This document shows positions 14,336 through 27,377 of a stretch of 28,388 nucleotides of DNA, in pieces. Under the pieces are notes generated by a model. That model was given only the letters and a program-made list of their open reading frames with translations. It was not told the DNA's origin and ran no database searches. Within the stretch, counting starts at the first letter, position 1; every line of letters begins with the position of its first letter. The position numbers and the translations under genes were made by a program. Origin of the DNA: Planctomycetota bacterium (GTDB lineage: Bacteria > Planctomycetota > PUPC01 > JACPCR01); the NCBI GenBank assembly GCA_030740295.1, contig JASLXP010000501.1, forward strand, positions 1-28,388, given 5' to 3'.

Positions 14336-15550
14336 GTGCCCCAGCTCAACGACTTCCGCCTCAGCTACTGCACCAACGTCCACCCTTCAGAAAAACTCGA
14401 CCAGATGCAATCGTCTCTGGAGGAGTTCACGCTGCCTCTGAAGAAACGGCTCTTTCCCGATCAGGAAATGGGTCTCGGTATCTGGATGGCCGCCGAGGCT
14501 GCGAGCACGCTCCATGACGACCCGGCGCAGTTGGATCACTTCAGAGAGTTCCTGTCCTCGAATGGTTTCTTTCTGTTCACGATAAACGCGTTCCCGTACG
14601 GAAATTTTCACTCCAATCGCGTCAAAGAGAAGGTCTACCTGCCCGACTGGACCGAGCAGGAACGCATCGACCACACGTGCCATGTCGCGGATGTACTGGC
14701 AAGCCTGCTGCCTGAAGGCGAGACCGGATCCATCAGTTCGCTTTCCGGCGCTTTCCGCCCGGCAAAACACGGCGAGGAAGTGTTCGAAAGTATCGCGGTC
14801 AGCATGGCCAAAGTGGTCGCGCACCTGAAACGCCTCGAGGATGAGACCGGCCAGCTCATCCAACTTGGCATCGAGCCCGAGCCCTGGACGACACTGGAAC
14901 TGACATCGGACTGTATCCACCTCTTCAACGAGCACATCTATCGAGGGGGCCGGCAGAAGCTCAGTCAGGAGCTTGGCATCAGTGCGGATGATTCCGAAAG
15001 CCTGCTGCGCCGCTACCTCGGCCTCTGTTACGACTGCTGCCACCAGGCCGTGGAATTCGAAGACCTCGGAGAATCCCTTTCAGCCCTCCAGGCTGAAGGC
15101 ATCCCGATCGCCAAGATGCACCTTTCCTGTGCCCTTTCGATACCTGACCCGGCGAACAATCCGGATGGCATCCGCGATTTGCTCTCGTTCGACGAGGAGC
15201 GCTACCTCCATCAGGTCGTCGCAATGGACCAAGGCCGGCGCGTCACTCTTCGCGACCTTGATGAGCTCACGCCTGAAGTGCTTGAAGTTTGGAAGGCTTA
15301 CCCCGAATGGCGCTGCCACTTTCACGTCCCCATTTTCCTCGAAAAGCTCCCCAACATGGGCACCACCCGGCCGCAGCTCGAGGCAGCAATAGACCACCTG
15401 AAAATAAACGGGAGCACACACCACCTGGAGATCGAAACCTATACCTGGCTGGTCATTCCGGAAGGGGTGCGAGAGGAACTGTGTGGCGGCACACTGTCCG
15501 GCAGCCTTGAACAGGAATTTCGGTGGGTGATGGAAAGGCTGACGAATTAA
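14336..15550 (+). CDS. EboE-like xylose-isomerase-type TIM barrel protein
   Basis: The 404-residue product resembles the EboE proteins (annotated as metabolite traffic protein), members of the xylose isomerase-like TIM barrel superfamily. Visible marks are LSYCTNVHPSE at the N-terminus, FLFTINAFPYGNFH (about 83-95), LGIEPEPWTTLE (about 178-190), LCYDCCHQAVEFE (about 230-242), IAKMHLSCAL, and CHFHVPIFLE with HLEIETYTW near the end. The Glu, Asp and His residues of these segments are where such barrels place metal ligands. EboE is known from the six-gene ebo operon, but no other ebo gene is here, and it pairs with a Gfo/Idh/MocA gene instead. The start is GTG 14336, with GGAG at 14321-14324 inside the upstream gene. 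The function is unproven. Confidence 0.75.
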   Translation: MPQLNDFRLSYCTNVHPSEKLDQMQSSLEEFTLPLKKRLFPDQEMGLGIWMAAEAASTLHDDPAQLDHFREFLSSNGFFLFTINAFPYGNFHSNRVKEKVYLPDWTEQERIDHTCHVADVLASLLPEGETGSISSLSGAFRPAKHGEEVFESIAVSMAKVVAHLKRLEDETGQLIQLGIEPEPWTTLELTSDCIHLFNEHIYRGGRQKLSQELGISADDSESLLRRYLGLCYDCCHQAVEFEDLGESLSALQAEGIPIAKMHLSCALSIPDPANNPDGIRDLLSFDEERYLHQVVAMDQGRRVTLRDLDELTPEVLEVWKAYPEWRCHFHVPIFLEKLPNMGTTRPQLEAAIDHLKINGSTHHLEIETYTWLVIPEGVREELCGGTLSGSLEQEFRWVMERLTN

Positions 15551-15574
15551 GTTTCAGGTGCCGGACATTGTGGC

Positions 15575-15596
15575 CGCAGGCTGCTGCCAGCCTGTG
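15575..15596. repeat. Palindrome between convergent genes
   Basis: CAGGCTG (15577-15583), loop CTGC and CAGCCTG (15588-15594) form a perfect 7-bp stem, extendable by a G-T and a C-G pair to 15575-15596. It lies 24 bases after the EboE-like gene and 48 bases after the convergent STAS gene. There is no T-run on either side, so it is not a classical terminator. It looks like a REP-type palindrome or a bidirectional 3' hairpin. Confidence 0.6.
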
Positions 15597-15644
15597 AGCC
15601 GAGAGAGATTACGGAAGAACCTGGCCAGCCCAGCCCCCAATTAA

Positions 15645-16487
15645 CTAAAACTGATACGCCTGGATGAGGTCGTCGTCCGAGCGGTTTTCGATTTCCAGGA
15701 CCGCGAGCAGTCTGAAGATCTTTAACACGTTCATGAGCACTTCGGGAACGTTGAGCAGGCGGAGGCGGCATCCAATCGCGCCCAGCCGCTTCTCCGTGCG
15801 GACGAGCATGCCGATGCCCTGCGAGCTGAAGAATTTGATTCCGCCGAGATTGAGATCCACATCAAAGTCTGCCTTGTCCAGTTCGACTCTGAGTATCGAA
15901 GCAGTTTCCGAATCCACCGTGCCATTTACGGTCATGTAATCCGGTCTGACCCAATCAAGGGTGATCTCCTGGCTGGTGTTCGCGACGATCCCCAATTTGA
16001 GAGAGTTCATTTTTTCGTTTCGCTCAGCACTCTCGGGTGCAGGAAGAACAATGGTGTAGTTTCCTGCCGTATTTTCGATGAAGGCAACATTGGCGTCTCC
16101 GGCGATCTCGAGGCCAGCCTGCTTCAAAGCTTCACCTGGGGAGGTCAAGAGTTGTTCACGGAGCGAGCTGTCCCCCTGGGCCTGGGCGATCAGTTTCTTC
16201 AGGGGGTTCACTATGAATTCCGAGGACATGGAAACGCTCTTACCGGCCTCCGGAAGCACGGTGGTAATATCGGAGTTCGAGAGCTGTTTGAAATCCACGG
16301 TCGCACCATCCGGCAGTTCGACGCCGGCATCGGCCATCGCCTCTGCAGGTGATTCAAGAAGCCTGGAAAGGAGCGTCGAATCACTGCCAGCCTCGCGCAG
16401 AAGCTTGCCGAAGGGATCTTCCGGATTCCACGCGTTAACAAGATCTTTGATGAATCGCTGTGCTGATATGAAAAGGTCGTCAGGCAT
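15645..16487 (-). CDS. Tandem NHLP-like domains fused to a STAS domain
   Basis: The 280-residue product has three parts. Residues about 24-81 and 95-150 are two copies of a domain resembling NHLP leader peptides: a helix ending LLESPAEAMADAGVELPDG in copy 1 and LLTSPGEALKQAGLEIAGD in copy 2. Each is followed by a strand pair ending TTVLPEA in copy 1 and ENTAGNYTIVLPAPE in copy 2. Residues about 175-268 are a STAS domain of the anti-sigma factor antagonist type (DVDLNLGGIKFFSSQGIGMLV, then RLLNVPEVLMNVLKIFRL). The usual DSSG phosphorylation loop reads FSSQG. The leader-type C-terminal cleavage motif (GG) is absent, so it is not an ordinary RiPP precursor. There is no signal peptide. The start at 16487 has GGGAG 6 bases ahead. 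It follows the giant secreted-protein gene by 79 bases on the same strand, so they are probably co-transcribed. STAS assignment is firm, NHLP similarity is by eye. Confidence 0.8.
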   Translation of the reverse strand: MPDDLFISAQRFIKDLVNAWNPEDPFGKLLREAGSDSTLLSRLLESPAEAMADAGVELPDGATVDFKQLSNSDITTVLPEAGKSVSMSSEFIVNPLKKLIAQAQGDSSLREQLLTSPGEALKQAGLEIAGDANVAFIENTAGNYTIVLPAPESAERNEKMNSLKLGIVANTSQEITLDWVRPDYMTVNGTVDSETASILRVELDKADFDVDLNLGGIKFFSSQGIGMLVRTEKRLGAIGCRLRLLNVPEVLMNVLKIFRLLAVLEIENRSDDDLIQAYQF

Positions 16488-16566
16488 GCCAGGCTCCCGA
16501 ATTTATCGAAGTTTCGAAGGGTGGCTATGTACCGGATTTCAGTGAGGCGTGCAAGGGATTCAAAGA

Positions 16567-19500
16567 TCACCGGATGTAGAGTGCGTCGATCAAAAAGTCT
16601 GCTTTCTTGTCAGCGCATTCAAATTTCAGATGTATCTCTTTGATGGCCTCTTTACTGCCCAGAACTGAGGTGTATCTGCCGCTGTCGCCCCTTTCGGTGA
16701 ATCGTCGGCCAGTGAGGTCAAAGCTCACCGGGGTACTCCATTGGCCTCCCGGAACAGATTGGGGCCGAGAGACAAGCGTCCGGCTGGATGTGCTCAAAAG
16801 GACTCTACAGGTCACCTCCTCTCCCTGGTGAAACAGGTGGAAGGAGAGCCGCTTGTTTCTGCCCCGAGGAACACTCCTTTTTAGAGAGAGCATCAGCTCG
16901 CGGTTCTTCCTGCTTTGGAATGAGTGCGTGACGGAGAGCACTTTCCCGCCGGCCGCGGAAGGCAACGATCGAAGTTGGGGAGGGCGGTCCGGCTTATCCT
17001 CGGCCTGGGCGGTCCAGTTGGGCTTGGATTCGAGTCCATCGCGTTTGTTTGGAGCTGCCGCGTCTGTGTAGAAAGGATAGCGATGGGCAGGCCCCCAGTT
17101 CCCGGCCTTGTCCCGGGCTCGAACGCTGAAAAAACGGAGGCCGGTTTTCTTTGCCACCGGCAATTTTACGAGACCTGCGGCGGAGCGAATCTTCGGCGCT
17201 GGCATTGACGCAGAAGAGGAATCCAAAGTCCACGCCAAGCCCGCAATGCCGGATGGATCTGTCGCGTGGACGCTGAATCTCGGCTCCGGTGTGCCACTGC
17301 CGGTCAGGATGAAATTATCAATATAGTATTCGCTTCCTTTCGCGTTCCAGAGATTGCTCCAGTTGCCGAACGCAAACTGGCCGACCGTGTGGGCTTTGGT
17401 TTCGGGGTCAGCATCTTTCAGGATGTCATGAAGATTGAAGATCGCGTGGTGCCATTTGCCATCCGCAACGATCCCGGGAATTTCGCCGATCTTGTCATAT
17501 CCGTCAGGGTCCTGGGTCAACGAAATGCATCGGTATTTACTGTTGGCATAAACGCGTAATAGGATTCTCAGACCGGGCGGGAATTTATAATCAAACGCGA
17601 CAATGGGATTCGGAGCGACCGGGACATTCTTCTTCAACTGGAGGTAAACGCCGGACTCATCCCAGGTATCAGCAATCGTCGCTTTCAGGCAATTGTCCTG
17701 GCGATCCTCATCCCGGGAAATGGCAATGCGTGCCCCTGATTGTCCGAGCGGCTTCCAATCGCCAAAATCCTGAGTAAAGCTCGTGAATGATTGCACCAGG
17801 TTGCCTTCGCCTTCGATGGCCAGGTCGACCGGGCCGTCCTGATCTTTCTTAAAATCCAGCACCCAACTCCAGGAAGCGGGCTCGGACCCGTTACCTGCAA
17901 AGTCCTTCGCCGGATCGAGCTCGAAACTGAGTCTGCTCTTGTCATCAGGGTCAGGGAACAGACCTGCCCCGGCCCAGTCGTAGGTCAACACGCCCGTCTC
18001 CGCATCGAATTCAGTGTGCTCTGATTCGAGCGAAACAGGTAAACCGTTCAACTTCAGTTGAATGGAACGCGGGTCGATGCCGGAGCCCTTTTCATGAAAG
18101 TGAAGCTTGATTTCCGGACTTGCCGTTTTGCTGCCCTGCGCGGGAAAGACCTCCTCGAGTCTGGGAGGAGTATTATCGACGAGGTAGCGAATATGCGTCG
18201 CACGGCCCCAGTTGCCGACGGTGTCCTGTGCACGGACATGGAAAAACAAGTCGCCTTCAGGCAGGTCTTCGAATGTGCTGTAAGGCTCCGTGGAATCGAC
18301 TTTGGTATCCGGGTCATCGGTTGCCCTTTTGCTCCAGGAATAGCTGTAGCCCCCGATGCCACTGATGTCTTCCGCTCCCCAGCGAAGCCTCAATCCGCCA
18401 TTTGAGCTGACGGCCTGGACGAGCGAAAAATTATCCAATTGCAGATTTGCACCGGGAACATTCCCCCGGTGCCCGAAATCGCCGAGCACGAATTGCGAAA
18501 TCGTGCTCGCATTCAGTTCGAAGTTTCTGAGATAGACGCCGACGACTTTTCTGAGGTCGACCTCCGCACGATGCCACCGCTTGTCCGCAACGACATCAAT
18601 CTTGCCAACGAACTCGAGACCGTCGTCACTGTCTGTGAATCCCATATATTTGTTCCCGCCCCGTGTCTGGAACTGAAAATCAGCCTTCAGGTTCCCATCG
18701 GTTCGATAATCAAAAGTGAGAAAAGGATACCGACCGAGATTGAATTGCCCTCGATGGAGCAGAATGCCGGAATATCCAGCAAGCTGTTCGTTAATGATGT
18801 TCAGGAATTGCCGGCCTTCCTGCTCTTGCCTTTTCAGCGTAATCCCCCTCTGAGCATAAGGGAGAATCTTGCCGAATCCCTCTTCAAAATCCTCATCGAG
18901 AATACGTGCCTCCAGGCGCACGGGTGAGGGTGGCGTTTTATCCAGGGACGGATCAAAAATAAGAGTCAGGGGAAAATTTCTGTAAAGCTCTTTGTTCACC
19001 TTCCTTTTGCGTTGCGAGGTTCTCCACCACTTGGTCGGGGTCCGAAGAGCTGCGGGCAACAACGTATCGGCGAAACTGATTTCAAGGGATACTTCCTCGT
19101 CTTTCTTCAGATCAACGCTGGTGTTCTCGAGATTAAATCTGAGCACGCGATGGCGTGCATCGTAATCAAGATTCCCGGGCGCGAGCTCTTGATGCTTAAT
19201 AACAACACTTACCGTTGAGAGCAGTGGATCGATGATGGAGTCTTTCTCAAAAAAGATCTTTACCTCTCCTCCGCCCCATTTCGCCCCATCCTTCGGCTTC
19301 GTTCGCAACATCTTGAGCGGGCCGGAAACTAGCAAGGGGTAGTGGACCGGTGGTGTCCATTTTCCATTTTGAGTCTTCATCGAAACATGAAAGAACCAAT
19401 TGCCAGGCGTCAGGCCTTTCTGTTGGACCCTCAGACTTTTGCAGTCTTTACCGAGTGCCTGAGTTTTATCGGGAAGGACCTTCAAGCTGCCTTTAGCACT

Positions 19501-22500
19501 GATTGGATGAGTTTTCGGGCTGTTATCAAGAATGTAGCAAAACTCCTGCACGTCTTTTGATTCTGTTCGGGCTGTCAAATCAAGATCTGGGCCACCAGCG
19601 GCTTCAAGGCGAAAATTGTCGATATGGTACGCCGCTCCGGCCATGTTCCCGCCAAATCCGGCCTGGATGTAACCCTCATGGAATTGGCCCAGCCTCATGG
19701 CTTGGAGGGTAAGCTGTGCGTTTTCCGGAAAACGCTCCTTCATCGCAAGCCCCAGATGGATCCGTGCCGTGTGCCAGTTCCCATCAGCTACTGCGTTGAA
19801 GTCCCCCGCCATCCTTTCCTTTGCACTCGTCCTTCCCGATCCGGTCAATCGAATAAAATAAAATCCATCCTTGCCTTTCAGTTGAAAATAAAGATTCACA
19901 AGGACGCCGCTAGGAATGCGGTAATCAAAACTTAAAGCTACTATTTTCGAGACGTCCAAATCCTGCACTGGTGCAACGACCCCGGAATCGCCGCCAGGGT
20001 GCTTGTTGACTAATTTTAGGCTGCCGGCGCCTTCTGCCTTAATTTCTTTGTCAATTGAAAGCAGTGCGCTCTGTTCAGAGTCAGTGACACTCCAGTCAGT
20101 AAAGTGTTTATCAAATGATTGTTCGAGAAATGGATGAGTAAGGGATGTGATTTCGATTGGATAAGTTTCTGTCGAAGCCTTATCAATTAGGCTGTCTGGT
20201 TCGGAGCGAAGGCTTACGCGCGCTTTCGGTTTTATTGCTTTTTCGTAAGAGATCTTTGCCCGCGCAACGACGATGCTGTTGTTTTGTGTCCACAGAGCAA
20301 TGTGCTTTCCTGGAGGTGGCTCTTCATCCTCAAATGACATCACTTTTACATTATCAAAGAAGAACCCGATGCGATTTTCGCGGCGGCGAAGTTTCAGAAA
20401 ATACCATGCGCCGTGAACCGGTCTCCCGCCCGGATCCCAAGGCACCTTAATTACCCTCGCCCTGGGCCGCCCGTCTCGAACGCGTGGGATCATCTCACGC
20501 TCTGTTTGAGCAACTACTATGTTCTTTCGGTAAATAAGCGATTGCTTTTCGGACCAGTATGGATCCCAGGCGGCCAGCACAAGCGCGTACCCACTGAACA
20601 TGTTCTGGCCGTCGCCGCAGAAGGATAAATTGATATCTCCCACTCTGGGATAAATGCCGCCCGCGCCTTCTCTCAACTCCTGTCGCATGCGCATGCCTGC
20701 AAAGCATTCGATGGTGAAATCGCCTTCAAACTCGTGCTTGTTCCACAATGCAGCAAGGCCCTTGCTGCGCCCGTTCATGTGGGACCATCTGGGATCACAT
20801 GAAAACCGATTGATGACCTCCCACGTTCCGACTCTTTCCCAGTCGGCGGGGGCCTGTTCGAACATATAGTCTTTTACCTGGTCTCGGAGCACCTGCACTT
20901 TTGCGAAGTCTGTATGACTGTGGAGAACTGTTCCGAGAGTGACTCCCTTCGACGGTTCAGGCTCATTTACTGACAGCAGCTCTTCATTATTTAAAGTGAC
21001 CCAGATTAGATTTCCGGCGACATTCAATTCCAACTTGCCCCAGTTAGTTTCCTCTTTCCTGCCAAGCTTTTTCTTTTTAGTTTTCGGTCTGACCTTACGG
21101 ATGGCCTGTTTTAACAGCCTCTGTTTTCTGTAAAGCGCGAGCTTGCACGATTTTTTTGCAGTATTTGTCGAAATCCGGAGTTCATATCCCTCGCCGGGTT
21201 CAGTCGCGTCTGCACCAAAGAAATAGGTTGCGTCACCAACAATGGGCATGTCGACGCGGAAATCACCATAAATATCCCCCTTGTAAATATAGGTGGCTGG
21301 CAGCCGGCGGCTTTGCGATTGACCTGCAGGCCACCATTCCCACCTGGGCGATGCCCAGCCGGCCATATAGGGATCCTGAGAAAATATCGAACGCCTGACT
21401 TTTTTCTCAATATCGCGCTCGTAGGACCCGAAAAGAGTCAGATCCCGGTATCGGCATTTTCCGTGACTGGTAATTGCCAGTTTCCCTGCTCCTGCGGGTA
21501 CCTGCCGTGCCACCAGTTGTCCGTCAAGAATGATTCTCAGCTCATTGTTCTTGTGATTTAGAAAGAGGCGGCGCCATTGGCCTGGCTGCAGTCGAGCGTG
21601 CACATCCTGTGTGCTTGTGCGGCCCTGCAGCTTGCCAGATGTATCTGTGTTGAGTTGGAGAACAGTATCTCCAACCTGGATGGCGACCGAGTCGTTGTTA
21701 CCAATGGCCTGAACACTCAGTTCGCAGTTGCCGCCGGTCCATGATTCGTCGAGGTACCGTGTTCCGTCTGTTCCTTCAAGAATCCAGGCATCCTGGTCTT
21801 TAACTATATTCCAGTCGCCTGACGTGGTTCGCGTGCAGGACTCCAGCAGCTTTTTTGTATCCAGCGTCAGTGAGGGATCCGATTCCACCAGGAAATCATC
21901 AAAATAAGCCCGGGCCTTTGTTGAATAGAGTCCGACTTTGCCGCCCACCGCATCGGGCCTTTCAGAACTGAAGAGCTGCGTATCGTCAACACCCGCGATA
22001 ACCCGCCCGCCTCTGATTGCCAGTTGCAGGCGGTACCAATTGCCTGCGCGGCCCTTCACGTATCGGATGCCAAGCGATTCCTCGCCCTTGGGAGACCTCT
22101 GAATCAGTTCGAGTTTGCCGGGATGCCTCATATCGAGCAGTAATGCGTAGCGCAAGAGAAAGTAATTCTCAGGGCCTCGATAGCCGGCCACGAGTCCGAC
22201 TTCTCCGCCGTCCGTTTTGGCGGAAACCTCGGTTCGATAATCTTCCCAGAACCAATGCCCTGCAGTCACCAGAGAGTTTTCCGGTATCAGACTGGAAAGG
22301 GAGAATGGATTGGCGCTCCTTTGGGCTTCGGGCTGATTACCCGGGCGAACGTTGGCAAACTTCCTTTCCCGGACCTGCTCGAGGATTGAGTGGCGCTGCC
22401 ATTCGCCGAGGGCCACGTTCCACTGGCCGAGATCTTTCACGCTCTCATTTGTGCCCATGAAATCGTCACGAAATGAAATTCCTGAAAGAGGTTGATACCG

Positions 22501-22965
22501 AACCTTTTGAATGTGATTGGTGCTGCCTGCTCGGGTCAGCAGTTTTCCGCGGAAGAACCGGTTATTCGCGGCCCAGGACGCGTAACGGCCGTTTACCAGC
22601 ACGGACACGGAATGGGGCTGCCTGCGGATCTCGATGTTCGCTTCGTCTGCGAGAGCAACGGGCCTCTTATCCAGAACGGTTCGCGTTCCGCCGTGATTAG
22701 ATTCCAGTGTGCCGTTTCCGTTATCCAGTCTGAAGCTGTAATAGTCAGTCGTCCCACTGCAGGCGAATATGAGCTCAGCCTTTTCCGAAGGTGCTGCCAA
22801 AGCGATCGAGAAAACGTAATGGTCGTGCCGGGCGTCTCCTATTAGCTGGAATGTGTTCCCGTCAATCTCCAAAGTCTCTGCCGTGCTCAGAGAGCCAAGG
22901 CTGAGAGAAATCAGGTAAAAGAGAAGAGCCATTCCGGGAATGCTCTTGATTGAGAATCGGGTCAT
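16567..22965 (-). CDS. Giant secreted multidomain protein (2132 residues)
   Basis: This exported protein begins with a signal peptide (MTRFSIKSIPG..., hydrophobic to about residue 29). Residues 30-905 look like five successive concanavalin/LamG or DUF1080-type lectin-fold domains (about 30-155, 163-360, 375-515, 530-695, 700-905). Residues 945-1968 are three degenerate copies of a module. Its first part is a jelly-roll of about 165 residues with the pattern (A/T)FDY...VADxxWH...IDNF (945-1122, 1350-1516, 1712-1888). An FN3-like part of about 85 residues follows, clearest as VRAxDxxGNWG near 1578-1587 and 1948-1957. An Ig-like domain follows the first two copies, for example GSGIDPRSIQLKLNG. 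A last jelly-roll ends the chain (1985-2132). No membrane anchor or catalytic motif is seen. Binding of polysaccharide or surface adhesion is inferred. It precedes the NHLP-STAS gene and is divergent from the rhomboid-like gene. Confidence 0.85.
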   Translation of the reverse strand: MTRFSIKSIPGMALLFYLISLSLGSLSTAETLEIDGNTFQLIGDARHDHYVFSIALAAPSEKAELIFACSGTTDYYSFRLDNGNGTLESNHGGTRTVLDKRPVALADEANIEIRRQPHSVSVLVNGRYASWAANNRFFRGKLLTRAGSTNHIQKVRYQPLSGISFRDDFMGTNESVKDLGQWNVALGEWQRHSILEQVRERKFANVRPGNQPEAQRSANPFSLSSLIPENSLVTAGHWFWEDYRTEVSAKTDGGEVGLVAGYRGPENYFLLRYALLLDMRHPGKLELIQRSPKGEESLGIRYVKGRAGNWYRLQLAIRGGRVIAGVDDTQLFSSERPDAVGGKVGLYSTKARAYFDDFLVESDPSLTLDTKKLLESCTRTTSGDWNIVKDQDAWILEGTDGTRYLDESWTGGNCELSVQAIGNNDSVAIQVGDTVLQLNTDTSGKLQGRTSTQDVHARLQPGQWRRLFLNHKNNELRIILDGQLVARQVPAGAGKLAITSHGKCRYRDLTLFGSYERDIEKKVRRSIFSQDPYMAGWASPRWEWWPAGQSQSRRLPATYIYKGDIYGDFRVDMPIVGDATYFFGADATEPGEGYELRISTNTAKKSCKLALYRKQRLLKQAIRKVRPKTKKKKLGRKEETNWGKLELNVAGNLIWVTLNNEELLSVNEPEPSKGVTLGTVLHSHTDFAKVQVLRDQVKDYMFEQAPADWERVGTWEVINRFSCDPRWSHMNGRSKGLAALWNKHEFEGDFTIECFAGMRMRQELREGAGGIYPRVGDINLSFCGDGQNMFSGYALVLAAWDPYWSEKQSLIYRKNIVVAQTEREMIPRVRDGRPRARVIKVPWDPGGRPVHGAWYFLKLRRRENRIGFFFDNVKVMSFEDEEPPPGKHIALWTQNNSIVVARAKISYEKAIKPKARVSLRSEPDSLIDKASTETYPIEITSLTHPFLEQSFDKHFTDWSVTDSEQSALLSIDKEIKAEGAGSLKLVNKHPGGDSGVVAPVQDLDVSKIVALSFDYRIPSGVLVNLYFQLKGKDGFYFIRLTGSGRTSAKERMAGDFNAVADGNWHTARIHLGLAMKERFPENAQLTLQAMRLGQFHEGYIQAGFGGNMAGAAYHIDNFRLEAAGGPDLDLTARTESKDVQEFCYILDNSPKTHPISAKGSLKVLPDKTQALGKDCKSLRVQQKGLTPGNWFFHVSMKTQNGKWTPPVHYPLLVSGPLKMLRTKPKDGAKWGGGEVKIFFEKDSIIDPLLSTVSVVIKHQELAPGNLDYDARHRVLRFNLENTSVDLKKDEEVSLEISFADTLLPAALRTPTKWWRTSQRKRKVNKELYRNFPLTLIFDPSLDKTPPSPVRLEARILDEDFEEGFGKILPYAQRGITLKRQEQEGRQFLNIINEQLAGYSGILLHRGQFNLGRYPFLTFDYRTDGNLKADFQFQTRGGNKYMGFTDSDDGLEFVGKIDVVADKRWHRAEVDLRKVVGVYLRNFELNASTISQFVLGDFGHRGNVPGANLQLDNFSLVQAVSSNGGLRLRWGAEDISGIGGYSYSWSKRATDDPDTKVDSTEPYSTFEDLPEGDLFFHVRAQDTVGNWGRATHIRYLVDNTPPRLEEVFPAQGSKTASPEIKLHFHEKGSGIDPRSIQLKLNGLPVSLESEHTEFDAETGVLTYDWAGAGLFPDPDDKSRLSFELDPAKDFAGNGSEPASWSWVLDFKKDQDGPVDLAIEGEGNLVQSFTSFTQDFGDWKPLGQSGARIAISRDEDRQDNCLKATIADTWDESGVYLQLKKNVPVAPNPIVAFDYKFPPGLRILLRVYANSKYRCISLTQDPDGYDKIGEIPGIVADGKWHHAIFNLHDILKDADPETKAHTVGQFAFGNWSNLWNAKGSEYYIDNFILTGSGTPEPRFSVHATDPSGIAGLAWTLDSSSASMPAPKIRSAAGLVKLPVAKKTGLRFFSVRARDKAGNWGPAHRYPFYTDAAAPNKRDGLESKPNWTAQAEDKPDRPPQLRSLPSAAGGKVLSVTHSFQSRKNRELMLSLKRSVPRGRNKRLSFHLFHQGEEVTCRVLLSTSSRTLVSRPQSVPGGQWSTPVSFDLTGRRFTERGDSGRYTSVLGSKEAIKEIHLKFECADKKADFLIDALYIR

Positions 22966-24028: not shown

Positions 24029-24118
24029 GGAGAGATGCCAGAGCGGCTGAATGGGCCGGTCTCGAAAACCGGTGTGGCTTCATTGTCACCGAGGGTTCGA
24101 ATCCCTCTCTCTCCGCCA
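24029..24118 (+). tRNA. tRNA-Ser (anticodon CGA), CCA encoded
   Basis: The 90-base gene folds as a class II tRNA. The acceptor stem GGAGAGA (24029-24035) pairs perfectly with TCTCTCC (24108-24114), followed by discriminator G and an encoded CCA (24116-24118). The anticodon stem CCGGT/ACCGG encloses loop CTCGAAA with anticodon CGA at 24063-24065, reading UCG. The long variable arm is TGTGGCTTCATTGTCACC, and the T arm is GAGGG-TTCGAAT-CCCTC (24091-24107). A run of six T (24119-24124) follows at once and may help end transcription. Confidence 0.97.
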
Positions 24119-24122
24119 TTTT

Positions 24123-26477
24123 TTAGAACGCCTCCAGTGGGACAAGTTTGAAGTTGCGGAAATATCCCATGGATTCCGCGGCCCACTGGATCGCAAAGCC
24201 ACCATACAGGAGGGGAGACGTCCCCTCTTTTTTTACGCCGTCGTTAATCTGGATCTGGAAATTGTTGTTGAATTGAATCTTCAATGTTCCGCCAATTGCC
24301 TGGACGTTCAGGTGATGTTCCTTATCCAGAAACGCAGGGAATTTTCCTTTACCGAGGGCCACTTTGCGGCCCCGTGCTTCTGGCAGGCCGCGCATTCTCC
24401 GGATGTTGTGCAGGCGATGGAACTCCCATTCTCCGCTTTGAAGGAATGACAGCCGGTACGCGGTTAGCCCTTGCTCCAGCCAGTTCTCCCGCAGGTTCTG
24501 GACACGGAACAGGAAATGAACGCCGGCCGATTCTTCCGGCATGTTATGCTGATTCAATTCGGGGCTGGCCTGCTTCACCAGAAAATCGAAATCCATGACG
24601 AAGTCCTTCCACGACCGGTCGCCTAGATGAGTAGACAGCAGGGGACCGCGTCCATTGACCCCATAGGAAAAGCCCTCTCGAGCTTTCGGCACTGTATGGA
24701 GACCGTCCTGAATCTTGAATTTCGTCCGACCGGCCGACCACACGTAATCGTCTAGCTTTATTCGCGGCGCGGTCGAATAGTTCATCATCGTTTCGATCTC
24801 CTCGCCGGTAAGTGAGCGGTTGTGGATTCGGATATCGTCGAGTTGGCCATCGAATTGATTCTGGGCCTGCCAGCTCAATGCTCCGATTGCCAGGCGATCA
24901 TGCTTGTACGGCTGAAGATAAGTGGTGCGAGCTTGCGTGCTGTACTGCCCGGCCGACTTAGCATTGACAAAGAAGTGGACCCGCCCTCTGAGGAAGGTTA
25001 CGGCGACATGGGTCCATTCATCCACAGGGATATTTCCCTGGTGTGAAAACCCCGACACCTGGCGTGGCTTGTTACCCATCAGCCTGAGACGCAGCCTCCC
25101 TTTATCGATTTCGAGAATATAGTCACCGTGGGTGGTCCCGCTGTGCCACTTGGAAAATATGTAGCGTGGGCGACCAAACTTATCATTAAAAGAGCGTGGC
25201 CTAATCCACGCGCTCAATGTGAATGCCTCATCAGTATTCAGAGTCTGTTCTGCGGGCAGCAGAATCGGCTTGCTCCCGTCATCGAGATCGAACGCGCTTT
25301 CAGGCCAACCATGCCTGTCAGATGCATAACGACTCTTTGCCGATTCAATCGGATGGTTGAGCTGGCTGCGATCGAGCGAGTGTCCATCCCCCGTCAGCCA
25401 GGCCACCAGTCCATCCTGCCAGGTCTGTTTGGGCTCTTTCTGCAGCAACGGCCGCGCAGTCTCGATCCCCAAGCCATAATTATCCCTCGGCCATTGTGCA
25501 AGGGCTCTGATTCGGTCGGCAGTCAGAATGCGGCTGTAGACGGTGACTTCATCCGCGCGGCCGACGAACTTGTGATCGCTCCAGCGGCCTATCTTCAGTG
25601 AAAACCGGGCGACCAGAGGGCCCAGTTCGCCCTCGGCCTGTTCAATGGCGGATGGCTTGCCGTCCATGAAGAAATTGACCCGCGACTCATCGTCCCAGGT
25701 AGCCGCAATGTGGTGCCACTTTTCTGCAAATGTCGGATGTTGAGTGTTACCACCGACATAGTTGTTGCCATGATTCGTGATGAACCAGAGGCCACGGCCG
25801 GCAGAGATTTGGAATCCAAAATCGATACCACGCGCGCCGATCTGTCCTTTCTGAATCCAAAACCGGTTGTCCTTGAAGAAAGGCAGCCATACCCAGGCTG
25901 CAACGGTCAGGCGCGAGAGTTTCAAGCTGGGCGCATCGCCCGCGTCAATGTAATCCCCCGGGTCAAACTTCATGCCACTGCCGTTGATGCCAGGCGCGAG
26001 GCTCGTACCGTAAAGTTTGCCGTGATTCTTCTCTCCGCTCAGGTCGATTACCTTTCCCGCTTGAATATTCTCGAAGTCATAGTGCAGAACCAGGCCCTCC
26101 TGCAATGGCTTGGGTAACGGGCGTGAAACTGAAAGGCTGAGAATCTGTTGTACCGGCAGATTCATCGCGCCTAGCCTGGAAGCTACCGGCAGAGCCTTGA
26201 GCTCCAGCTTCCCTTTCAAACGCATCGAGTTCGCAAGATCGATGACATACAACTCCTCCTCCCGACTCACAGTTCTGATGTGCCGAAAGGGAATCTCCAC
26301 AGGCCCGAGCACGGTCATGAGTTTCAGCTTCCGTACGTCTTTCGGCACGCCGCGGACAAAGCCGCCGTCCTTGAGCCTTATATCCAGTTGGATAGGAGCA
26401 TCGGTCCGAGCTTCCTCCCCGGGTGTATCAGTGGCAGCGCCAAGGAGAATCAAGAAAAAAAAGTGAGAGTTTGGCAT
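24123..26477 (-). CDS. Secreted protein with two LamG-like domains
   Basis: The 784-residue product starts with a short hydrophobic signal-like segment (MPNSHFFFLILLGAAT). Residues 28-116 form a small beta-rich domain with two similar halves (IRLKDGGFVRGVP... and LANSMRLKGKLEL...), each ending in a hydrophobic strand before the next element. LamG-type concanavalin-like domains follow at about 129-326 (LVLHYDFE, WHHIAATWD, VDEVTVYSRIL-like) and 356-570 (LVAWLTGDGHSLDR, WTHVAVTFLRG, LDDIRIHNRSL). Residues 575-784 look like a third lectin fold of DUF1080 type (DFLVKQASPELN, LNVQAIGGTLKIQFNN). No catalytic motif is visible. Carbohydrate binding is inferred. The gene is convergent with tRNA-Ser, its stop lying 4 bases after the tRNA CCA. 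The start has no clear Shine-Dalgarno sequence. The 201-base gap to the divergent DUF1961 gene shows nothing definite. Confidence 0.85.
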   Translation of the reverse strand: MPNSHFFFLILLGAATDTPGEEARTDAPIQLDIRLKDGGFVRGVPKDVRKLKLMTVLGPVEIPFRHIRTVSREEELYVIDLANSMRLKGKLELKALPVASRLGAMNLPVQQILSLSVSRPLPKPLQEGLVLHYDFENIQAGKVIDLSGEKNHGKLYGTSLAPGINGSGMKFDPGDYIDAGDAPSLKLSRLTVAAWVWLPFFKDNRFWIQKGQIGARGIDFGFQISAGRGLWFITNHGNNYVGGNTQHPTFAEKWHHIAATWDDESRVNFFMDGKPSAIEQAEGELGPLVARFSLKIGRWSDHKFVGRADEVTVYSRILTADRIRALAQWPRDNYGLGIETARPLLQKEPKQTWQDGLVAWLTGDGHSLDRSQLNHPIESAKSRYASDRHGWPESAFDLDDGSKPILLPAEQTLNTDEAFTLSAWIRPRSFNDKFGRPRYIFSKWHSGTTHGDYILEIDKGRLRLRLMGNKPRQVSGFSHQGNIPVDEWTHVAVTFLRGRVHFFVNAKSAGQYSTQARTTYLQPYKHDRLAIGALSWQAQNQFDGQLDDIRIHNRSLTGEEIETMMNYSTAPRIKLDDYVWSAGRTKFKIQDGLHTVPKAREGFSYGVNGRGPLLSTHLGDRSWKDFVMDFDFLVKQASPELNQHNMPEESAGVHFLFRVQNLRENWLEQGLTAYRLSFLQSGEWEFHRLHNIRRMRGLPEARGRKVALGKGKFPAFLDKEHHLNVQAIGGTLKIQFNNNFQIQINDGVKKEGTSPLLYGGFAIQWAAESMGYFRNFKLVPLEAF

Positions 26478-26678
26478 GAACGATGAAAAGTGGTTCAGTC
26501 TGACCGGTGATTGACTTTCAGAATATTAACATCACAACCACTGTTCATGCATGTTTCAGGACCGAAACCTCCAACCAGTTCGTACGGCAACCTTCGGCAG
26601 TAGCCGAAGCACCACACGTGTCGCGCGCCGCACGGAAGATCAGCACAGTAGATTCTTGTAACTCAGAGAGGCACCACC

Positions 26679-27377
26679 ATGCCCGTTGAATACGAAAATG
26701 TTGAGCTCCTTCATTCCGATGATTTTCACGAGCTTTCGAACTGGCATCACGAGGGGATCGGGCGTCTCGAGTCACTGCCCGGCGGCGGCATGCGCCTGGC
26801 GTGTCTGGGCAGCCGCCAGGGCGGCGAAGGCTGCATGGCTTTTTTCCGGCACGACCTGCCGGACCATGTGGCTTACGAATACGACCTGATCGTAAGAACC
26901 CAGGGCGGGCTCGTGATCAATTATCTCGCGATACGGGGCATCAACGGTGAGGACATGATTGCGGACATCGACGACCTCGAACCGCGCACAGGCATCATGG
27001 CGAACTACTTCAGCGCAAAGTGGGGGCTGCAGTCCTACCACGCTTCGATCAGCCGGTTCAACGACGCAGGCGAACATACGGAGACATCCAACTGGCGTCG
27101 CAATCCTGGCTGCAAACTCATTGGCCACGGCATCGACCCCTGCATGGAGATTGGCCGAAAATATCACATCCGAATCGTGAAGGATCGAGGCCATTGCCAA
27201 CTCTTCGCCGATGGCAGATTCGCGCACGGTTTCATGGATCACGACCAATCATCGCCGATACCGGATACCGGCAAATTTGGCTTTCGCCTAATCGGTTCTG
27301 AGGTGGTTGCCGAGGTGTTTAACTTCCAGGTGCATCGGGTCGAGGCGAATGAATCCATTTGGAGATGCCAGGAATGA
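26679..27377 (+). CDS. DUF1961 family protein
   Basis: The 232-residue product resembles DUF1961 proteins, which have a concanavalin-like beta-sandwich fold and often sit near polysaccharide-degradation genes. Typical segments are LHSDDFHELSNWHHEG at the N-terminus, MAFFRHDLPDHVAYEYDLIV, YFSAKWGLQSYHASISRFNDAG, YHIRIVKDRGHCQLFADGRF and FGFRLIGSEVVAEVFNFQVH at the end. There is no signal peptide. The start at ATG 26679 has GAGAGG 7 bases ahead. A catalytic role is not established for the family. Its neighbours, a LamG protein and the giant lectin-fold protein, fit a carbohydrate-related setting. It is divergent from the LamG gene and convergent with the YeeZ-like gene. The 92-base gap to that gene shows no clear terminator. 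Confidence 0.85.
   Translation: MPVEYENVELLHSDDFHELSNWHHEGIGRLESLPGGGMRLACLGSRQGGEGCMAFFRHDLPDHVAYEYDLIVRTQGGLVINYLAIRGINGEDMIADIDDLEPRTGIMANYFSAKWGLQSYHASISRFNDAGEHTETSNWRRNPGCKLIGHGIDPCMEIGRKYHIRIVKDRGHCQLFADGRFAHGFMDHDQSSPIPDTGKFGFRLIGSEVVAEVFNFQVHRVEANESIWRCQE

Follow-up and report, generated by a model that had tools for sequence, protein, structure and literature searches.

In a 28,388-nucleotide contig from a Planctomycetota bacterium (assembly GCA_030740295.1, contig JASLXP010000501.1; this whole stretch is referred to here as the window), we found a gene whose product joins two units of the nitrile hydratase-derived leader peptide (NHLP) type to a C-terminal STAS domain. According to PMC12455567, NHLP units are long, folded leaders of ribosomally synthesized and post-translationally modified peptides (RiPPs), with surfaces that are read by different enzymes. 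In the window protein, both domain types are present, their order is conserved, the acceptor serine of the STAS domain is kept, and the leader end is missing. This rare planctomycete fusion of two NHLP folds with STAS suggests that a peptide-tagging fold has been reused as a regulatory input module. The gene and its parts are as follows.

15645..16487, reverse strand: whole gene (280 residues, ATG start), encoding an N-terminal helix, two NHLP units, a linker and STAS
16416..16487, reverse strand: N-terminal part (residues 1-24), with a helix at 5-19 in the structure model; R11, F12, D15 and W20 are invariant in eight members
16242..16415, reverse strand: NHLP unit 1 (residues 25-82), matched by the profile and modelled as three helices with two strands
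16032..16211, reverse strand: NHLP unit 2 (residues 93-152), matched by the profile and modelled as three helices with two strands
15972..16031, reverse strand: linker (residues 153-172), with a helix at 154-162 in the model, in the place of the GG-type end and core of a leader
15648..15971, reverse strand: STAS domain (residues 173-280)
15822..15824, reverse strand: codon of S222, the putative phospho-acceptor serine, from alignment to SpoIIAA/RsbV

The NCBIfam profile TIGR03793 matches the whole protein in two stretches (61.8 bits, E 4.2e-17, cut-off 50.9), and the likeness to NHLP leaders and proteusins, including the matched structures 8tb1 and 9cjx, covers about profile positions 7-65 in each unit and ends in VLP. 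Neither unit of the window protein exceeds the cut-off when taken alone (unit 1, residues 1-92, 26.0 bits, E 6.2e-6; unit 2, residues 93-160, 41.5 bits, E 8.8e-11), and the formal call therefore depends on the sum of the two stretches. The units also align with one another, ungapped, across 56 columns; their score of 103 (z 16.2) was reached by none of 2000 shuffles, and they are alike in seven of the eight members (scores 67-112, 0/2000 shuffles each). A chance repeat is ruled out by this test, save in the member P0007, in which the units match no better than chance (score 35, reached by 66 of 2000 shuffles), unit 1 is shortened and TIGR03793 detects unit 2 only. An earlier note, made from the letters of the window, had proposed two NHLP-type units, and both the profile and the mutual match bear this out. 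The structure model of the whole protein likewise predicts three helices and two strands in each unit. It was built from a hand-shaped alignment, A4, chosen after trial alignments and holding 8 full-length rows, 11 NHLP fragments (L013, L015, L016 and L017 left out) and 26 of the 30 STAS fragments fetched (L057, L058, L063 and L069 dropped); an earlier model from five close sequences reached a predicted local distance difference test score (pLDDT) of 40 and was discarded.

The fusion is uncommon but is kept where it occurs. Searched three times, a set of approximately 5.8 billion proteins yielded 4, 6 and 5 matches, which make up seven homologous clusters (P0001-P0007, 278-288 residues); of these, P0007 was reached through its STAS part and has, on reading, the same domain order. 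Remote relatives may be missed, since the search tool needs shared 5-residue words and one search scored only the best 7998 candidates. The fusion gene is present in two of the nine genomes of the class of G001, a set that does not include the window's own genome, and in the same two among 392 genomes sampled from the phylum; one locus was found in the genome_contigs collection, where the search patterns covered just the first 20 residues. The contig in G001 is that of the Planctomycetota metagenome-assembled genome casp150-mb.279, and the copy in G006 keeps the entire layout at 40% identity. For the single pair formed by the window gene and the L001 copy, with codon 20 excluded, the ratio of nonsynonymous to synonymous substitution rates (dN/dS) is 0.23 over the whole gene; among the parts it is 0.14 in STAS, 0.21 in unit 2, 0.30 in unit 1 and 0.60 in the linker. 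The linker also has the lowest identity (0.47) among the parts compared, and the 11 codons between the units give a dN/dS of 2.45 with very little synonymous change. At codon 20 the L001 copy, from a metagenome-assembled genome, has an in-frame TAG (L001 10058-10060), which is either a sequencing error or the mark of a broken copy; P0003 reads Trp at this codon and differs from the L001 copy at a few other positions.

TIGR03793 alone can call proteins that are not precursors, nitrile hydratase alpha included. A real alpha subunit (L017, G052), which is the sole clear one in the 392-genome sample and served as a control, also gives two stretches (56.7 bits, above the cut-off), so that this hidden Markov model (HMM) cannot by itself tell a pair of leaders from a single hydratase-like module. 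The HMM search proposed in the earlier note thus holds as far as the matches of both units go, but it does not discriminate. This G052 protein (L017 / L074) is itself a case in which TIGR03793 can mislabel nitrile hydratase alpha as a leader.

The N-terminal 150 residues could accordingly be a degenerate nitrile hydratase alpha-like module that has lost its metal site, rather than a leader pair, and we regard this as unlikely. Several alignments are collinear with such a module: P0007, in which the two units cannot be told to be alike, matches Pfam NHase_alpha in a single stretch (residues 10-148 on 37-159); a PDB search with alignment A2 aligned residues 16-153 with 35-166 of 4zgj; and thiocyanate hydrolase gamma (2dd4 and 3vyg, E 0.16 and 0.18) aligned along 10-152 on 49-195. 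Foldseek listed nitrile hydratase alpha over approximately 150-163 columns (best E 1.2e-3, root-mean-square deviation 7.6). The VIA structure list was filled by STAS chains and so neither supports nor excludes the enzyme. On the other hand, although nitrile hydratase alpha has two NHLP-like stretches in one chain as well, its halves are barely alike (score 34, z 2.3, 36/1000 shuffles), whereas the units of the family resemble each other more than the hydratase halves do in seven of eight members. Unit 2 matches TIGR03793 from position 7 and the best hydratase stretch, its second half, from position 17, and the five PDB alignments printed in the A2 search pair the units crosswise. The metal-binding cysteine cluster of the enzyme is also missing, as CxxCxC occurs in no member; the only cysteine of the window protein is C240, with none in residues 1-172, where other members have one or two outside any such motif. 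A tree of 55-residue units, which is unrooted, places the units of the family in one group, separate from the hydratase halves and from the units of the genome G077 (support 0.77); the unit-2 sequences within this group do not form one clade. Judging from these sequence comparisons, a duplication of an NHLP unit within the family appears more likely, because of the crosswise pairing, the dissimilar hydratase halves and the grouping in the tree.

Tandem leaders are known from peptide biosynthesis. PMC2887384 described fused NHLP-Burk precursors (TIGR03795) in Delftia and Acidovorax in 2010, and G077 holds seven TIGR03793 proteins on two contigs, each of which, by reading, has a second, N-terminal NHLP-like part and ends in AGG with a short Cys-bearing tail. 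The HMM shows two stretches in one and a single stretch in the other of two that were scanned, and the two parts score 49-70 against each other in the five proteins that were tested, with at most 1/1000 shuffles as high. On G077 contig C62, such precursors stand beside LanM (590.7 bits, cut-off 304) and the NHLM transporters TIGR03796 (1058.7, cut-off 853.3) and TIGR03797 (880.8, cut-off 709.4), and this is a tandem leader in a lanthipeptide setting. The loci there, L079 5349-17034 and L080 2138-4881, hold LanM, the two transporters and several tandem-NHLP precursors, whose Cys-bearing tails after AGG vary. Across the phylum sample, TIGR03793 has matches at 1e-5 in 10 of the 392 genomes and over the cut-off in four.

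Like the NHLP-Burk and G077 precursors, the window protein has two NHLP-type units in one chain, but it carries a regulatory domain in the place of the core. It differs from NHLP leaders and proteusins in its tandem units, in the STAS fusion and in that no GG end, core or RiPP enzymes were found. The profile matches of its two units break off at positions 62 and 65 of 77, from which we conclude that it lacks the GG-bearing end of a leader; the linker and then STAS follow, in agreement with the earlier observation that there is no GG-type site and no core. A role as RiPP precursor or carrier, in which a modifying enzyme or NHLM exporter would still read the NHLP pair and STAS would be the cargo, is thus very improbable. 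In P0002, the unit 2 match extends to position 75 of 77, a possible remnant of a leader end, yet without GG. No RiPP enzyme was found among the 15 open reading frames (ORFs) of the window that were scanned with Pfam, and none of the nine class genomes has YcaO, LanM over the cut-off (one 27.2-bit match in G008) or TIGR03796 over the cut-off (all nine have lower ABC-transporter matches), which extends the earlier remark that no modifying enzyme lies nearby. One of these lower matches is a C39-type ABC transporter in G001 (581.9 bits to TIGR03796), which would speak for such a carrier; at L028 499-3633, it also shows, by eye, cyclic-nucleotide-binding-like parts and lies beside a protein that is HlyD-like by eye. 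Conserved NHLP units that have no core, no cleavage site and no detected RiPP enzymes suggest that the fold can exist as an ordinary protein module.

The C-terminal partner is a STAS domain, as had been read from the sequence: Pfam STAS_2 (E 2.6e-7) and STAS (E 8.1e-6) both exceed their cut-offs at residues 186-270, and the fusion is kept in the homologues. Its loop reads FFSSQG, in line with the FSSQG, rather than DSSG, that had been pointed out. In HMMER alignments, S222 is paired with the phosphorylated residue of SpoIIAA, number 58 of chain 1th8_B by a count made by eye, and with the matching serine of RsbV; the acceptor position is Ala in the 1tid chain. The acceptor serine and S-S-Q-G are kept in all eight members. 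In 30 further STAS domains from the class (of 55 matches), the acceptor position holds Ser (24 domains), Thr (3), Gly (2) or Pro (1), and the preceding position Ser (18), Asn (8), Asp (2), Glu (1) or Gly (1). The suggested loss of regulation by phosphorylation of this serine is therefore unsupported, given that S222 is in the acceptor register, that it is Ser in 8/8 members and that Asp is rare before the acceptor; loss of the site was rejected on the PDB alignments and the class STAS loops. A review and a research article (PMC8256260, PMC4517449) describe a conserved phosphorylated serine.

The reading that we favour, at even odds, is a partner-switching regulator with an RsbV/SpoIIAA-like STAS domain. 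In such a regulator, S222 would be phosphorylated in the cytoplasm by a HATPase_c_2-type kinase whose gene lies elsewhere, the phospho-state of S222 would decide which partner is bound, and the NHLP pair might gate STAS. RsbV and SpoIIAA share with the window protein the STAS fold and an acceptor serine in register, but they are single-domain proteins, whereas here a 150-residue N-terminal module is added and no adjacent kinase gene was found among the 15 ORFs. The layout of RsbR of the stressosome, an N-terminal domain followed by a C-terminal STAS domain, fits as well; compared with RsbR, the N-terminal part is NHLP-like by profile and the STAS domain is closer to RsbV.

Several observations count against partner switching. 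The anti-anti-sigma profile TIGR00377 gives 35.4 bits, below its cut-off of 53.45 (51.2 bits for P0007). No kinase, PP2C phosphatase or sigma factor was found in the 15 Pfam-scanned ORFs, which include the gene itself and are not every ORF of the window, and the contigs that carry the gene in G001 (C231) and G006 (C123) have no PF13581 match. HATPase_c_2 matches number 10 in G001 and 6 in G006, but their presence says little because seven of the nine class genomes have such kinases.

More tentatively, the structured leader fold of RiPP precursors may have undergone duplication and been recruited by a partner-switching regulator as its input domain, where it would now gate a signalling STAS domain. 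Structured NHLPs are bound through protein-protein contacts on different surfaces (PMC12455567, PMC10858898), and a docking role for the NHLP pair is plausible for this reason. An MlaB-type structural adaptor, in which STAS would stabilise or dock to another protein with no phospho-cycle and the NHLP pair would offer a second surface for docking, is an alternative that we consider improbable. If gating by the captured leader fold is true, a fold that evolved for binding by peptide-modifying enzymes now gates a signalling domain. The fusion makes it possible to test whether signalling has taken over a biosynthetic recognition fold. In the literature searched, which mostly leaves out subscription journals, we came across no previous account of NHLP units serving in signalling and no paper on NHLP or nitrile hydratase together with a STAS domain.

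A scan of positions 15500-16800 found no promoter or terminator, PADLOC gave no defence-system match, and no viral relatives of the protein were confirmed by sequence; the viral fold library gave nothing at E 0.001 or better (best 1.2e-3). One neighbour lies 79 bp upstream of the gene:

16567..22965, reverse strand: LamG-like protein of 2132 residues, from Pfam, with a signal peptide by eye

On the other side, an EboE gene (14336-15550; 413.5 bits, cut-off 250) faces the fusion gene. L001 keeps both neighbours, whereas the flanks in G006 differ. LamG-like relatives, several of approximately 2000 residues, are numerous in G001 and G006. A functional link to the LamG-like neighbour was rejected, and we take it as local synteny, because it is absent at the G006 locus and its relatives are so numerous. 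Farther along, 24029-27377 holds a tRNA-Ser, a 784-residue LamG protein and a DUF1961 gene; in the corresponding stretch of L001, neither of the two protein genes was seen. A Gfo/Idh/MocA oxidoreductase gene adjoins EboE.
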